Assembly: GCF_900188185.1 (NCBI RefSeq)
Contig: NZ_FZPA01000014.1
Span: 1-64,000, forward strand
Origin: Sphingopyxis indica
GTDB lineage: Bacteria; Pseudomonadota; Alphaproteobacteria; Sphingomonadales; Sphingomonadaceae
Length of the DNA stretch: 64,000 bases
Direction: 5' to 3'
The notes beneath the pieces are model-generated. The model ran no database searches and was not told the origin of the DNA. It worked only from the letters and a program-made list of their open reading frames with translations. Every line of letters begins with the position of its first letter. Within the stretch, counting starts at the first letter, position 1. Both the position numbers and the translations under genes were made by a program. Of the stretch, positions 6,370 through 11,707 are shown piece after piece.

Positions 6370-6411
6370 GGCGCGGCAGTGGCAGATTCGACATGCGGTT
6401 TAAAGAGAAAC

Positions 6412-6501
6412 CGTCGCCCCCGCGCAGGCGGGGGCCGCTGGAGGTTTACGCAACGCCGCCGGGCAAGGCCGCCGGCGGCCCCCGCCTGCGCGGGGGCGAC
6501 G
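6412..6501. repeat. Perfect 27-base inverted repeat
   Basis: Arms 6412-6438 and 6475-6501 are exact inverted copies with a 36-base loop. It lies between the start of sufE and the last gene of the psp array, where it may end transcription of the array. Confidence 0.9.
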
Positions 6502-6507
6502 TCATAG

Positions 6508-6762
6508 TTAAAGATCGACCCCCGCCGCGATCGCTTCCAGCTTGCGCAGCCGTTCCTTCAGATCGGCGATCTCGATGCGCGAGCCCGCGTGCGGGACCGC
6601 GGGGTCCTGCGCCGGGCCGTGCCCCGCCGCGAGTTCCTCGCGCTTCAGCTGAATCCAGTCGCGCCAGCCGCGCAGCGCGACCAGACTGACGATGGTCAGC
6701 GCGGAGAGTGCGATCGCTGCGGTGACCAGATTGGTGGCAAGGTCGGACGTCATGGTGCCCAT
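6508..6762 (-). CDS. Small membrane coiled-coil protein, last of the psp array
   Basis: An 84-residue protein with one hydrophobic segment near residues 10-32, a basic stretch (GWRDWIQLKREE) and a C-terminal helix with the heptad-like LKERLRKLEAIAAG. The last part is a degenerate form of the LExR..VLERI motif found in the other small proteins of this locus. It lacks the terminal DEIxxLR. I do not recognise a named family. It is the ninth gene after the 57-residue peptide in a uniform minus-strand run and is inferred to belong to the envelope-stress operon. Confidence 0.78.
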   Translation of the reverse strand: MGTMTSDLATNLVTAAIALSALTIVSLVALRGWRDWIQLKREELAAGHGPAQDPAVPHAGSRIEIADLKERLRKLEAIAAGVDL

Positions 6763-6786
6763 GGATCGGCTCCTTCTTCGTCGCTT

Positions 6787-7062
6787 TTACGGGAGGGACC
6801 GGTCGCGCAGCTTCTCGATCTCTTCGTCGAGGCTGACGGCGCGGTTATTGTCGGTGGCGATGCGTTCGAGCACCTGGATGCGCTCTTTGAGGGCGCGGAT
6901 CTCCGCCTGCAGCGCCTTGGTCTCGGCATCGTCGCGCGGGGTAATATCGGGGCCATAGCCGCTGTCACGGCCGCGGTGGCCATGCACGCCATATTTCGCC
7001 CGGATGATGCTGCCGATCGTCACGATGAGGACGATGCCGATGACCATTTCAAAGGGGTTCAT
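6787..7062 (-). CDS. PspB-like small membrane coiled-coil protein (91 aa)
   Basis: One N-terminal membrane segment (about residues 4-20), a charged linker, then a coiled coil with KERIQVLERIATD and EEIEKLRD at the C end. The same two motifs occur in its neighbours at 7095, 7367, 7651 and 7988. The start at 7062 is chosen because AAAGGA stands upstream and the membrane segment begins at once; a longer reading frame to 7281 overlaps the neighbouring gene and has no such support. The topology is that of PspB. Function unknown; probably a partner in the Psp envelope-stress response. Confidence 0.8.
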   Translation of the reverse strand: MNPFEMVIGIVLIVTIGSIIRAKYGVHGHRGRDSGYGPDITPRDDAETKALQAEIRALKERIQVLERIATDNNRAVSLDEEIEKLRDRSLP

Positions 7063-7094
7063 GGGGAGGGATCCTTTCGTGTCTTTCGTATCTG

Positions 7095-7343
7095 TCAGTT
7101 GAGCGGCGCGTCGCGCAGCTTGTCGATTTCGTCGGCAACGTCGATGCCACGATCGGTGACGATGCGTTCGAGAACGCGCACGCGTGCTTCGAGCTTTTCG
7201 GTCTGCGTCGCATATTGCGCCGCCTTTTCGGCGGTCATCTCCGACTGTTTCTCGATCATCCGCTGCTGATGCTTCGACCACACGATGAAGCCGGTCAGGA
7301 TGAAGGGAGCGAGCGGGATCAGGATCCAGATTTCGTCACCCAT
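7095..7343 (-). CDS. PspB-like small membrane coiled-coil protein (82 aa)
   Basis: 82 residues: a hydrophobic segment at about 5-22, then a coiled coil with EKLEARVRVLERIVTD and DEIDKLRDAPLN at the end. It is closely related to the next gene upstream (7367-7639): both have EKAAQYA followed by near-identical C-terminal halves, so the pair arose by tandem duplication. It lies 32 bases downstream of the previous gene's start on the same strand order and is probably cotranscribed with pspABC. Confidence 0.82.
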   Translation of the reverse strand: MGDEIWILIPLAPFILTGFIVWSKHQQRMIEKQSEMTAEKAAQYATQTEKLEARVRVLERIVTDRGIDVADEIDKLRDAPLN

Positions 7344-7366
7344 GGGTCTTCTCCAAATCTTTTCCG

Positions 7367-7639
7367 TCAGTTGAGCGGCGCGTCGCGCAGCTTTTCGATC
7401 TCGTCCGCGACCTCGAGGCCGCGATCGGTGACGATGCGTTCGAGGACGCGCATCCGCTGCTCGAGCCGTTCGGTGTGCGCAGCATATTGCGCGGCCTTTT
7501 CGGCGGTCTCGTTGCTGATCGCCTCGAGCTGCTTTTCCTTGAACTTCAAGTGGCGCTTGTACATGTCGCCGCCCACGCCGAGGATCACCGGGATGCCGAC
7601 CACGATGAAGAAGAAGCCCAGAATGAAATATTCGTTCAT
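7367..7639 (-). CDS. PspB-like small membrane coiled-coil protein (90 aa)
   Basis: 90 residues with a membrane segment at about 3-22, a basic stretch (KRHLKFKEKQ), and a coiled coil carrying EQRMRVLERIVTD and DEIEKLRDAPLN. The C-terminal half is almost identical to that of the 82-residue protein downstream. The N-terminal halves differ, which suggests that the membrane segment has diverged while the coiled coil is kept. Twelve bases separate it from the gene upstream. Confidence 0.82.
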   Translation of the reverse strand: MNEYFILGFFFIVVGIPVILGVGGDMYKRHLKFKEKQLEAISNETAEKAAQYAAHTERLEQRMRVLERIVTDRGLEVADEIEKLRDAPLN

Positions 7640-7650
7640 CGGTTCGCTCC

Positions 7651-7971
7651 TCAGTTCGCCGGGCGCCGCAGCGCCTCGATTTCGCTCGCTACCCGGTGGC
7701 TCTCATCGGTGACGATGCGCTCGACCACCGCGAGGCGATCCTTGACCGAGCCGAGCTCGGCGCGCAGCTGCGCATTTTCCTGGCTGATCAGCTTGACGCG
7801 CTCCATCGCCTCGTCGCTCGTCTTCGGATAGATCGCCTGGCCCCAGGCGCCGTCGAGCGGATAGCCGTTCTTGATCCGGAGCCAGGTCGTGAAGACCCAG
7901 CCGCCGATCGCGACCACGCCGACGATCGTGACGATGGGGGCGATCGCACTGATGATTTCAATGGCTTCCAT
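7651..7971 (-). CDS. PspB-like small membrane coiled-coil protein (106 aa)
   Basis: 106 residues starting at the ATG at 7971. It has a membrane segment at about 6-30, then RIKNGYPLDGAWGQ, a coiled coil with KDRLAVVERIVTD, and SEIEALRRPAN at the end. The GYP motif after the membrane segment is shared with the next gene upstream (KHGYPVENEWGE), marking those two as a second duplicated pair in the array. A longer frame upstream to 8199 runs through the neighbouring gene and is rejected. Confidence 0.8.
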   Translation of the reverse strand: MEAIEIISAIAPIVTIVGVVAIGGWVFTTWLRIKNGYPLDGAWGQAIYPKTSDEAMERVKLISQENAQLRAELGSVKDRLAVVERIVTDESHRVASEIEALRRPAN

Positions 7972-7987
7972 GTGCAAATCCTCTCTC

Positions 7988-8287
7988 TCAGCGCAGCCGG
8001 TCGATCTGGTCGGCGAGCTGCGCCGCTTGTCCATTGGTGTCGGTCGCGATGCGTTCGAGCACCGAAATGCGTTCCTCGAGCCGGACAATCTTGTCGGCGA
8101 GCTTGGCATTATCGCCTTCCAGCAGCGCGATTTTTCGATCGGCGTCGGGGGTGGTTCGATGAACCGTCTCGCCCCATTCATTCTCGACCGGATAGCCATG
8201 CTTGGCGCGCATCCACGTCGTCACCATCCAGCCGACCATCGACATGCCGATGATGACGAGGACGAAGGACGGACTACCCCAACTCAT
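7988..8287 (-). CDS. PspB-like small membrane coiled-coil protein (99 aa)
   Basis: 99 residues: membrane segment at about 5-24, WMRAKHGYPVENEWGE, then a long coiled coil ending in EERISVLERIATD and ADQIDRLR. It is the first of the six extra genes after pspC, 44 bases downstream of it. The layout (short outside or membrane part, then a cytosolic coiled coil) is like PspB, but the protein is longer and lacks a close match to PspB itself. Confidence 0.82.
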   Translation of the reverse strand: MSWGSPSFVLVIIGMSMVGWMVTTWMRAKHGYPVENEWGETVHRTTPDADRKIALLEGDNAKLADKIVRLEERISVLERIATDTNGQAAQLADQIDRLR

Positions 8288-8331
8288 TGCTCATTCTCCC
8301 TGTTGCCCGCCCGCTCGAAACCGGTTCCTGC

Positions 8332-8712
8332 TCAGCGCAGCGCGTCGATTTCGTCGGCGAGACGGCGGTTGTGGCTGGTATAATATTGCTCGATGTCGGC
8401 AAGCCGGCGGTCGATGTCGCGGAAGCGCGAGCGGATGTCGCGGGTCGAAGCGCTGGGGTTCGACCGCACGCCCTGCCAGAATTTAGCCTCCTCCTGCGTC
8501 GCATAGAGCGCAAAGGGCTTGGGCGTGGCCATCCAGGCGACGAGCCAATAGGCGATCAGCGTCCAGGGGAAGCCGCCCATCAGGGTGAGCAGCACCGCGC
8601 CGACCCGGACCCACAGCGCGTCGATGCCGCTATAGTCCGCGATCCCCGCACAGACGCCGCTCCATTTGGCGTTCTGCTTGTCGAGATAGAATTTGGTGCG
8701 GCTGGCAGACAT
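8332..8712 (-). CDS. pspC: Envelope stress protein PspC
   Basis: PspC-domain membrane protein that senses inner-membrane stress and helps recruit PspA. The 126 residues open with the PspC signature (LDKQNAKWSGVCAGIADY), followed by a two-part hydrophobic stretch at about 32-62. The C-terminal cytosolic part ends in RRLADIEQYY and ADEIDALR, the same ending as the small proteins downstream. Length is close to the 119 residues of E. coli PspC. It starts two bases after the pspB stop, so the two are coupled. Confidence 0.92.
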   Translation of the reverse strand: MSASRTKFYLDKQNAKWSGVCAGIADYSGIDALWVRVGAVLLTLMGGFPWTLIAYWLVAWMATPKPFALYATQEEAKFWQGVRSNPSASTRDIRSRFRDIDRRLADIEQYYTSHNRRLADEIDALR

Positions 8713-8713
8713 C

Positions 8714-8989
8714 TCAGTTCCTCCTGTTCATATTCTCGAGCTGCGCCAGATCCTCATCGCTGCGCACCGCGGGGCGGAAATCGGGATGGTCGGCGCTGAT
8801 GATGCGTTCGACGGTATGAAGACGATTCTCGAGCCGGCGAGCCGTATCGTAAAGTTCGTCGAGCAGTTGCTCATCCTCTCCGGTCAGCGTCTTGGCCTGC
8901 TTCCACTTGGTGATATAGTGGAGGATCAGCCAGGGCAGACCGAGGAAGAGCGTGCCGATGACGATCGGGACAATGATGACTTCTTCCAT
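8714..8989 (-). CDS. pspB: Envelope stress protein PspB
   Basis: Small inner-membrane partner of PspC. The 91 residues have one N-terminal membrane segment (about 4-25), the WxxLHYITKWKQ region and a coiled coil with RRLENRLHTVERIIS, as in PspB of enterobacteria, plus an acidic C-terminal tail. E. coli PspB has 74 residues. It sits 12 bases after pspA and two bases before pspC. The motif LENRLHTVERI is the apparent template for the repeated motif of the downstream array. Confidence 0.9.
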   Translation of the reverse strand: MEEVIIVPIVIGTLFLGLPWLILHYITKWKQAKTLTGEDEQLLDELYDTARRLENRLHTVERIISADHPDFRPAVRSDEDLAQLENMNRRN

Positions 8990-9001
8990 CGGTCCGGTTC
9001 C

Positions 9002-9664
9002 TTATTTCTTGCCCTGCGCGGCCTTCAGCGCGGCGAGCTCGTCGGCGACCTTGTCGGCGGCCTGCAGCTCGGCGATCTCTTCGTCGAGCGACTTCTTGTA
9101 GCCGAGGCCAAGCGCTTCGGCGCGGCCTTCTGCCTCGTCGACGCGGCGCTCGAGGATCTCGAAGCGCGAGAAAGCATCCTCGACGCGGTCGCCGTTCGTC
9201 ATTTCGCGCAGCCTGTAGCGGTTTTCGGCGCTTTCGAGGCGGTTGACGATACCCGACTGGCGCGCGCGCGCTTCGCTCAGCTTCTTTTGCAGCTTGGCGA
9301 TATCGGCCTCATAGCCCTTGAGCGCGTCGTCGAGCACCGCGATTTCGGCCTTCAGCTTCTCGGCCATGTCGCCCGCCTTCTGCTTTTCGACGAGCGCGGC
9401 GGTGGCGAGATCCTCGCGGTCCTTCGACAGCGCGAGCTCGGCCTTTTCCTTCCAGCTGTCCTGAAGGCTTTCGAGCTTGGCGATATGGCGGCGCATCTCC
9501 TTCTGGTCCGCGATGGTGCGGGCCGCGGAGGCGCGAACCTCGACCAGCGTCTCGTTCATCTCGAAAATGATCTGGCGGATCATCTTTTCGGGATCTTCCG
9601 CCCGGTCGAGCAAATCGGTGACGTTGGCGGCGATGATGTCGCGGGTTCGAGAAAAAATACCCAT
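9002..9664 (-). CDS. pspA: Phage shock protein A
   Basis: Peripheral membrane protein of the PspA/IM30 (ESCRT-III-like) family. It stabilises stressed inner membranes, and in enterobacteria it also binds and inhibits PspF. The 220 residues match the usual length of 222. They start with an amphipathic helix (MGIFSRTRDIIAAN), then the LLDRAEDPEKMIRQ signature and nearly continuous coiled coil. It heads pspB and pspC in an operon and lies downstream of the sigma-54-type promoter at 10.0 kb. Confidence 0.97.
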   Translation of the reverse strand: MGIFSRTRDIIAANVTDLLDRAEDPEKMIRQIIFEMNETLVEVRASAARTIADQKEMRRHIAKLESLQDSWKEKAELALSKDREDLATAALVEKQKAGDMAEKLKAEIAVLDDALKGYEADIAKLQKKLSEARARQSGIVNRLESAENRYRLREMTNGDRVEDAFSRFEILERRVDEAEGRAEALGLGYKKSLDEEIAELQAADKVADELAALKAAQGKK

Positions 9665-9768: not shown

Positions 9769-9942
9769 TCAGGCCATCGGGCCGACCGCCGGGGAAGCCG
9801 CAGCGATCACCGAAACCATGCCGACCGAGTGTCCGGCGTGGCTGACGGCGATCTGAGGATGGTCGATCACGCCGACGAGAATGGCCAGCGCTCCCGCCGC
9901 GCTGAGCGCAAATGTGGCGGCCTGGGCAAACATCGTCTTCAT
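9769..9942 (-). CDS. 57-residue membrane peptide at the head of the psp operon
   Basis: A 57-residue frame starting at the ATG at 9942: MKTMFAQAATF, a hydrophobic segment at about 10-28, a His-containing middle (DHPQIAVSHAGHSVG) and a second weakly hydrophobic stretch ending in GPMA. GGAAGG lies upstream. It is the first gene behind the sigma-54-type promoter and is separated from pspA by a hairpin. I know no family for it. A signal-peptide reading is also possible. That it is translated is inferred from its start site and codon usage. Confidence 0.65.
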   Translation of the reverse strand: MKTMFAQAATFALSAAGALAILVGVIDHPQIAVSHAGHSVGMVSVIAAASPAVGPMA

Positions 9943-10002: not shown

Positions 10003-10021
10003 TTTGCAGGGACCGTGCCAA
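10003..10021 (-). promoter_or_regulatory. Sigma-54 promoter of the psp operon
   Basis: Read on the minus strand, TTGGCACG (-24 element, 10014-10021) is followed by four bases and CTGCA (-12 element, 10005-10009). This is near the consensus TGGCACG, four bases, TTGCW. It points at the 57-residue gene and pspA and lies between them and pspF. The palindrome CCAATGATTGG at 10109-10119, overlapping the pspF start region, could be part of an upstream activator site. Confidence 0.85.
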
Positions 10022-10120
10022 TTGCCGGAAAGCCCCGAAAATGGCGCAACTTCACGCCGGATTCGCCTTGCTCGCCGATTTTTCTTGCCAATCAGCGGGA
10101 AATATTGCCAATGATTGGGA

Positions 10121-11140
10121 ATGGAGCGCGAAACGCAGTTCATCGGCCAGTCGGCGGCTTTTCAGGATGCGGTCGATCGCGCGAGCCAGGCCGCGGCGCT
10201 CGACCGCCCCGTGCTGGTCATCGGCGAGCGCGGCACCGGCAAGGAACTGATCGCGGAGCGCCTCCACCGCCTGTCGGCGCGCTGGGACAAGCCCTATGTC
10301 ATCATGAACTGCGCCGCGATGCCCGAAACGCTGATCGAGGCCGAATTGTTCGGGCACGAGGCGGGCGCCTTCACCGGTGCGACGCGCAGCCGCGCAGGGC
10401 GCTTCGAGGAGGCCGACGGCGGCACCCTGTTTCTCGACGAGCTCGCGACCATGTCGATGGCGGCGCAGGAGCGCCTCTTGCGCGCGGTCGAATATGGCGA
10501 GGTCACGCGCGTCGGCGCCTCGCGCCCGATCCGCGTCGACGTGCGCATCGTCGCGGCGACCAACGAGCATCTGCCCGCGCTGGTCGAGGCGAACAGCTTC
10601 CGCGCCGACCTGCTCGACCGCCTGTCGTTCGAGGTGATCACCCTGCCCCCGCTTCGCGCGCGCGAGGGGGACATCGAAGTGCTCGCGACCTATTTCGGGC
10701 AGCGCATGGCGGCGGTGCTCGGCTGGGAGGAATGGCCGGGCTTCGGCCCGCGCGCGCTTGCGGCGATGGAGGGGCACGACTGGCCGGGGAATGTCCGCGA
10801 GCTCAGGAATGTGATCGAGCGCGCCATCTATCGCTGGGCCGACCCCGAAAAGCCGGTCGATGCGCTGACCTTCGATCCGTTCGCGAGCCCGTGGCAACCG
10901 GTCGCGAGCAAGGCGGCGGTGAAGGCCGAGGCGCCGGCGCAGCCGGGCGATTCCGCGCCCGCCGCCACGCCGCCGGCCGGGACGGTGAACGACCTGCGCG
11001 CCGCGGTTGACGGCTATGAACGGCAGATTCTCGCCGACACCATGGCGCGCTGCCGCTATAATCAGAAGGTCGCCGCCGAAGCGCTCGGCCTCAGCTACGA
11101 TCAGATCCGGCACGCGCTGAAGAAGCATGGGTTGAACTGA
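10121..11140 (+). CDS. pspF: Sigma-54-dependent activator PspF
   Basis: AAA+ bacterial enhancer-binding protein that drives sigma-54 transcription of the psp genes. From the ATG at 10121 it has 339 residues. The AAA+ domain starts almost at once, with no N-terminal sensor domain, as in E. coli PspF. It has Walker A GERGTGKE at 35-42, the sigma-54 contact loop GAFTGA at 82-87 and Walker B GTLFLDE near 101-107. A Pro/Ala-rich linker leads to a Fis-type helix-turn-helix in the last 40 residues. A TTG at 10115 is an alternative start. It is divergent from the psp operon, the classical arrangement. Confidence 0.95.
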   Translation: MERETQFIGQSAAFQDAVDRASQAAALDRPVLVIGERGTGKELIAERLHRLSARWDKPYVIMNCAAMPETLIEAELFGHEAGAFTGATRSRAGRFEEADGGTLFLDELATMSMAAQERLLRAVEYGEVTRVGASRPIRVDVRIVAATNEHLPALVEANSFRADLLDRLSFEVITLPPLRAREGDIEVLATYFGQRMAAVLGWEEWPGFGPRALAAMEGHDWPGNVRELRNVIERAIYRWADPEKPVDALTFDPFASPWQPVASKAAVKAEAPAQPGDSAPAATPPAGTVNDLRAAVDGYERQILADTMARCRYNQKVAAEALGLSYDQIRHALKKHGLN

Positions 11141-11143
11141 CAA

Positions 11144-11168
11144 GGTCGCCCCCGCGAAGGCGGGGCGA
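11144..11168. terminator. Short hairpin between pspF and a lipoprotein gene
   Basis: Inverted repeat GTCGCCCC (11144-11151) and GGGGCGAC (11161-11168) three bases after the pspF stop, between two convergent genes. There is no T run. It belongs to the same GC-rich intergenic hairpin class as 6412-6501. Confidence 0.5.
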
Positions 11169-11185
11169 CGGCTATAGCGAACGCC

Positions 11186-11707
11186 CTATTCTTCCGGCAA
11201 TTGCGCCTGCAGCGCATCGACCACCGCGCGCTGGGTCGCATCCATGTCGGCGAGCCGGTCGCGCAGCGCGTAGATGTCGGGCAGGCCGTCGACCTGCTCC
11301 TCGACGCTGCGGTCGATATAGAGGCGGTCGATGTCGGCGAGCGCGACGGTCAGCGGCGCGCGCGTCGATTGCAGGCGCGAGATCGCCTGCTGCGCGACGA
11401 CCCAGCGCTCGCTGCCCACGCTCGCGCCGACGCCTTCCGACACGAGCGCGGCGGTGCCGTCGCGTTCGGCGGCAAATGCTTGCTGCGCCTGCGTCGCATC
11501 CGATTCCCAGCGCGCGAGGCGGCCGGCAAGGTCAGTCGGCAGCGGCCCCGGCGGCTCGGCGATCACCGCGGGCGGCGCAACGTCGAAACGGCCCTCGACC
11601 GGGCGCGGGGCGAGCGACGGCGCGCCCGTCTGCTGCGCCGATGCACAGCCCGAAAGCGGCAGCAGGGCGGCGGCAAGAAGCGGCATCAGGAGGCGGGTGC
11701 GCATCAT
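11186..11707 (-). CDS. Hypothetical lipoprotein
   Basis: From the ATG at 11707 (or 11704) the protein has about 173 residues. It begins with a lipoprotein signal, MMRTRLLMPLLAAALL, and the lipobox LSGC. The mature part is hydrophilic and rich in Ala, Asp and Glu, with helical segments (RLARWESDATQAQQAF, DIDRLYIDRSVEEQV). No catalytic motif is visible and I recognise no family. Upstream in-frame codons to 11788 would place a non-hydrophobic leader before the signal and are rejected. It converges on pspF and is divergent from rplU. Confidence 0.8.
   Translation of the reverse strand: MMRTRLLMPLLAAALLPLSGCASAQQTGAPSLAPRPVEGRFDVAPPAVIAEPPGPLPTDLAGRLARWESDATQAQQAFAAERDGTAALVSEGVGASVGSERWVVAQQAISRLQSTRAPLTVALADIDRLYIDRSVEEQVDGLPDIYALRDRLADMDATQRAVVDALQAQLPEE

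Follow-up and report, generated by a model that had tools for sequence, protein, structure and literature searches.

An ordered array of small membrane protein genes behind pspABC in one family of sphingomonads, most with PspB-like layout and PspC-like tails

The psp region and its six additional genes

The window, a stretch of 64,000 nucleotides from Sphingopyxis indica (contig NZ_FZPA01000014.1, positions 1 to 64,000), contains a psp region in which pspA, pspB and pspC are followed by six small genes, S1–S6, all on the minus strand, with pspF divergent (Table 1). A first, sequence-only reading of this DNA had reported six consecutive small minus-strand genes behind pspABC, and we confirmed them together with their coordinates; they have 82–106 codons, and the gaps downstream of pspC are 11–44 nt. 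The PspA of the window is 97% identical to PspA of Sphingopyxis species. GC-rich palindromes (CGCCCCCGC...GCGGGGGCG) at window positions 6400–6505, after S6, and 11141–11190, near the end of pspF, flank the psp region and look like REP-type elements or terminators.

Table 1. Genes and sites of the psp region, with positions in the window
Feature	Position	Strand	Description
pspF	10115..11140	+	sigma54 activator for the psp operon; TIGR02974 471 bits (cut-off 443.55)
sigma54 (−24/−12) promoter	10006..10020	-	TGGCACGGTCCCTGC; 356 nt upstream of pspA; assigned by sequence match
57-aa hydrophobic leader ORF	9769..9942	-	MKTMFAQAATFALSAAGALAILVGVIDHPQ...; between sigma54 promoter and pspA
pspA	9002-9664	-	TIGR02977 271 bits, above the curated NCBIfam cut-off
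pspB	8714-8989	-	TIGR02976 91.7 bits and PF06667 97.6 bits, both above cut-offs
pspC	8332-8712	-	TIGR02978 120.6 bits, above the curated cut-off; C-terminal tail ends ADEIDALR
S1 (class T1, 99 aa)	7988-8287	-	membrane helix, juxtamembrane motif RAKHGYPVENEWG, PspC-like tail
S2 (class T2, 106 aa)	7651-7971	-	membrane helix; motif RIKNGYPL..WG; PspC-like tail on a long cytoplasmic helix
S3 (class T3, form a, 90 aa)	7367-7639	-	hhalign probability 94.5 against broad PspB profile
S4 (class T3, form b, 82 aa)	7095-7343	-	membrane part IWILIPLAPF
S5 (class T5, 91 aa)	6787-7062	-	hhalign probability 93.1 against broad PspB profile
S6 (class T6, 84 aa)	6508-6762	-	final operon gene; membrane helix, LRGWR.W..LKR, C-terminal end ADLKERIRKLEAIAAGVDL

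A sigma54 match of the same grade as that in Table 1 is present in the 700 nt before pspA in 81/81 loci, and a top-grade match is absent from 79/80 operon interiors. No terminator-like site was found within the window on the coding strand of the S1–S6 operon, and purine-rich stretches occupy the expected ribosome-binding positions of the genes. Given the short gaps, the upstream sigma54 site and the lack of a coding-strand terminator, S1–S6 are likely cotranscribed with pspABC. The sigma54 site and the short gaps agree, at the level of sequence, with a psp operon driven by PspF and sigma54.

Short ORFs with one hydrophobic stretch occur in the same position as the leader ORF in the other sphingomonad loci listed. 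A GC-rich inverted repeat (GGTGCCGGGGC...GCCCCGGCACC) lies between the leader ORF and pspA. Repeats of the ATTGGCAA type at window positions 10085–10125, upstream of the sigma54 promoter and across the pspF start, are candidate PspF binding sites.

Relation of S1–S6 to PspB and PspC

The first reading described a coiled-coil motif and an ending shared by most of the small proteins. The motif, LERI(V/A)TD...(E/Q)I(D/E)xLR, is present in S1–S5 (as VERIVTD in S2), but S6 has KERLRKLEAIAAGVDL alone and the second half of the motif is missing. Searches of Pfam, NCBIfam and PHROGs with S1–S6 gave nothing above cut-off. The top sub-threshold matches of the S proteins are PspB and PspC, with S3 matching TIGR02976 at 1.8e-5 and TIGR02978 at 1.1e-4. 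By curated score no S protein is a PspB: S3 is the best at TIGR02976, with 24.9 bits vs 51.7, and S5 the best at PF06667, with 13.9 against a cut-off of 25.6. The PspC domain PF04024 is absent from S1–S6, the PspC of the window being its sole match there, and S6 scores 16.8 bits with PspM (NF047839), for which the cut-off is 80. A search of a plasmid collection with S3 gave no match.

Profiles were also compared with hhalign. Two PspA coiled-coil stretches, used as controls, gave probabilities below 4, and reversed-sequence targets gave at most 26. With a PspB profile drawn broadly from alphaproteobacteria, the alignments of T3 and T5 span 67 columns, membrane helix included (Table 1), and T1 reaches 90.8. 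Against the sphingomonad PspC tail, which carries ExxxT...EIxxLR, T1, T2 and T0 (a rarer class) align end to end with probabilities of 83–93; T1 gives 83.0, and T2 and T0 give 92.9 each and reach the last residue of PspC. T3 and T5 give 66–69 with this tail. The matches are short, 18–67 columns. T6 gives at most 3.1 with the PspB and PspC profiles, so that no link was detected, and aligns weakly with T5 (25 columns, 84.8). Thus the kinship to PspB and PspC proposed in the first reading holds for S1–S5 and could not be detected for S6. A direct link between the PspB tail and the PspC tail, compared without the S proteins, is unsupported, with a probability of 4.2, and homology therefore does not pick either pspB or pspC as the source gene.

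Like PspB (TIGR02976 / PF06667), S1–S5 have one N-terminal membrane helix and a helix that is presumably cytoplasmic, and they share with PspB the sequence (R)RLExRxxxLERI and the operon. Unlike PspB, they have a T(D/S)...EIxxLR tail in place of the DAExPxWR ending; the signature (D)AExPxWR occurs in PspB of other alphaproteobacteria and was not found in S1–S6. Their tails resemble the C-terminal domain of PspC (TIGR02978 positions 82–121), in which ExxxT(S/D)...EI(D/E)xLR extends to the very C-terminus, but the S proteins have neither the PF04024 domain nor any membrane region of PspC. S1–S5 are remote relatives of PspB and PspC, with a PspB-like layout and, to judge from the alignments, a PspC-like end. 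An AlphaFold2 model of S2 (pLDDT 77, pTM 0.31) has a membrane helix at residues 2–34 and a long helix at 53–102, joined by a linker of low confidence; it carries no information on partners. The model of PspC is poor and silent on binding. A PDB sequence search with the T2, PspB and PspC profiles returned only chance matches, mostly coiled coils, and no solved relative.

Distribution, order and exchange of anchors

A search of sphingomonad genomes, as the first reading had suggested, shows that the array is not peculiar to the window. From named sphingomonads we sampled 80 loci with pspA, in which the small ORFs lying downstream of this gene were called. The order pspA-B-C-T1-T2-T3-T5-T6 is repeated across them, with losses and occasional duplications. 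Every sampled locus except one truncated contig has pspB, pspC and T6, and the interval from pspC to T6 holds between one and five genes, drawn from classes T1, T2, T3 and T5 and the rarer T0. The commonest order, T1-T2-T3-T5-T6, is found in 28 loci and in a further one (L009) with two pspB-like ORFs, a split pspB. T1 is present in most other loci holding the operon, and T1, T2, T3 and T5 are each missing from some species. The order in the window is T1-T2-T3-T3'-T5-T6, and it is alone among the sampled loci in having two T3 genes.

The first reading took the array for a lineage-specific expansion, and profile searches with T2 and T6 agree, placing it within a single family. Matches to T2 among 240 alphaproteobacterial genomes were the window genome and two more members of its family; T6 was found in 34/120 genomes of the order, every one in that family. 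The family meant here is the GTDB family, which, judging from the names, spans the NCBI families Sphingomonadaceae, Sphingopyxidaceae, Sphingobiaceae and others. In 200 genomes of the family, PspA was found in 187 and T6 in 169; when the two lists are combined, with kinship ignored, T6 is present in 168/187 PspA-positive and 1/13 PspA-negative genomes, and the sole PspA-negative genome with T6 is 66% complete. In four genomes (G054, G130, G146 and G198) T6 is apparently outside the psp operon, at another place in the genome or on a different contig, yet is kept; in G054 and G130 it is far from pspA.

In a tree of 16 loci, built on few columns, the classes are recovered as ortholog groups. Stepwise local duplication, as the first reading envisaged from two close neighbouring pairs, is not what we found. 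S3 and S4 are indeed close (54% identity), but S1 and S2 (33%) are no closer than S2 and S3 (36%), and T1 and T2 form separate, non-sister clades. The classes of S1–S6 are old, ordered ortholog groups that occur only within a single GTDB family, with no recent local burst. The median dN/dS between the window and other Sphingopyxis is 0.045–0.077 for pspA, pspB and pspC and 0.19–0.38 for the extra genes, with the T3 values inflated by the mixing of two forms; the extra genes are under purifying constraint but evolve faster than pspABC. Since the class order is kept across about 80 sphingomonad loci and dN/dS is purifying, the array is not due to chance.

The two ends of the proteins differ in conservation. 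With the tail defined as the last part, starting nine residues before the LExxxT motif, identity within every class is 58–73% in the tail vs 39–59% in the membrane (N) part; between classes, it is 39–45% vs 15–31%. The T3 slot in Sphingopyxis has two N-terminal forms, a and b, with 17–28% identity between them, and the T3 tails do not group according to form (DNA identity 85% for a–b, 83% for b–b and 89% for a–a). A match was found in 56 Sphingopyxis genomes: 36 carry form a without b, 19 carry form b without a, and the window genome is the only one with both, arranged in tandem; the forms were distinguished in this count by full-length vs partial matches to S4. Simple recent copying of S3 does not account for S4, whose N-terminus is the different form that is common in the genus. 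The N-terminus of form b is also found on T5-type tails in five other, Sphingorhabdus-like loci. The simplest reading of these sequences is that anchors have been exchanged between tails.

How much of this was known? Ravi et al. (2024; PMC11237479) report that PspB duplicates occur in psp operons, with AOL22920.1 as an example, and that PspC may bear a divergent PspB-like end. Their operons resemble the sphingomonad array in having extra PspB-type genes with pspABC, but their main text does not divide the genes into classes or state their order, tail type, range and copy number, and these operons may overlap with the sphingomonad set. The main text of Popp et al. (2022; PMC9239133) does not mention sphingomonads, and our search of open-access papers found no description of the S1–S6 array. 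Two loci of another alphaproteobacterial family (L135 and L136) are similar in that a gene for a membrane segment with a PspC tail and a second, for a membrane segment of PspB type, directly follow pspC; they differ in having these two genes only, separately recognisable as the PspC-tail and PspB types, and this addition is apparently independent of the sphingomonad array. A further locus of that other family (L126) has, besides a second PspC-like gene, an additional small gene with a membrane segment. That psp operons can hold duplicated PspB genes is thus already known; what appears to be undescribed is the ordered set found across the family, with its hybrid proteins, its constant T6 and its swapped anchors.

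Proposed role of the additional proteins

What is the function of these proteins? We suggest, with a probability of roughly 0.55, that T1–T5 are membrane-anchored docking partners of PspA and of the PspBC switch. They would be small single-pass inner-membrane proteins with a PspB-like anchor, a cytoplasmic helix and, at a C-terminus that we place in the cytoplasm, a tail that shares homology with the PspC C-terminal domain. Through their divergent membrane and juxtamembrane parts, these proteins would detect different membrane conditions, move to sites where such conditions prevail, or find different partners among PspB and PspC, while their common tails would bind to PspA, or would rival the tail of PspC for PspA or PspB. 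The outcome may be graded release of PspF and graded recruitment of PspA, with T6, the most constant member, as an accessory subunit.

This proposal is favoured because a PspC-type tail sits on other membrane anchors, with profile homology that holds against the controls, and because operon order and short gaps are kept in about 80 loci, with the sigma54 site upstream and no coding-strand terminator in the window. Furthermore, T6 co-occurs with PspA, tails outlast N parts in conservation within and between classes, the T3 tails are common to two unrelated N-termini, and one of these also occurs on a T5-type tail. Finally, the PspC tail binds PspA. In Yersinia, the C-terminal domain of PspC is reported to bind PspA when the switch is on, freeing PspF (PMC5596341), and in E. 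coli the PspC fragment 40–119, its C-terminal half, and its zipper are required for interaction with PspA (PMC3068692). Several results count against the docking-partner proposal: S1–S5 all fall below the curated PspB and PspC cut-offs, the matches are short, dN/dS is several times the pspABC value, so that each copy is less constrained, four of the classes have each been lost somewhere, and S6 could not be linked to either PspB or PspC.

The S proteins could instead be effectors, small membrane-stabilising proteins under sigma54 and PspF whose tail serves only for assembly with PspBC or with each other. We consider this rather unlikely, although other small Psp proteins have been suggested to play such a role, among them PspG, an effector that interacts with PspC in E. 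coli (PMC3068692). Membership of the same operon with a single sigma54 promoter site, and a most constant member, T6, that has no complete tail, would suit effectors, but the PspC-type tail is strongly conserved in T1–T5, and in PspC that part is tied to PspA binding. Less probable again is a role as negative competitors, decoys that would use their tails to occupy PspA or the cytoplasmic domain of PspB and would keep the switch off until stress sets in; being induced together with pspA, they would provide negative feedback. The joining of a PspB-like anchor to a PspC-like tail is consistent with decoys, as is the silencing of the system by the cytoplasmic domains of PspB and PspC in Yersinia (Flores-Kim and Darwin 2016, as cited in PMC5596341), but by sequence decoys are inseparable from docking partners. 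That the genes are largely redundant paralogues with little function of their own, which drift and gene conversion have retained in a duplicated operon, is very improbable: dN/dS above that of pspABC and variable losses would fit, but a dN/dS of 0.19–0.38 is still purifying, class identity and order are maintained family-wide, and some genera keep T6 even where it lies outside the operon.

Returning to the docking-partner proposal, it is conceivable, and we put it forward tentatively, that the array is a modular psp sensor. Anchors would be swapped between PspA-docking tails, PspA would read several membrane states via paralogous receptors, and the two T3 forms would be alternative inputs.

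Genes that fall under the Pfam and NCBIfam cut-offs, and would usually be annotated as hypothetical, now have names and boundaries. The array offers about five natural hybrids of PspB and PspC, with constant tails and variable anchors, in many sphingomonad species, in which input is separated from output, and this series would allow module-swap tests of how PspB and PspC sense membrane damage. In these bacteria, the S proteins probably give PspA several different docking partners.
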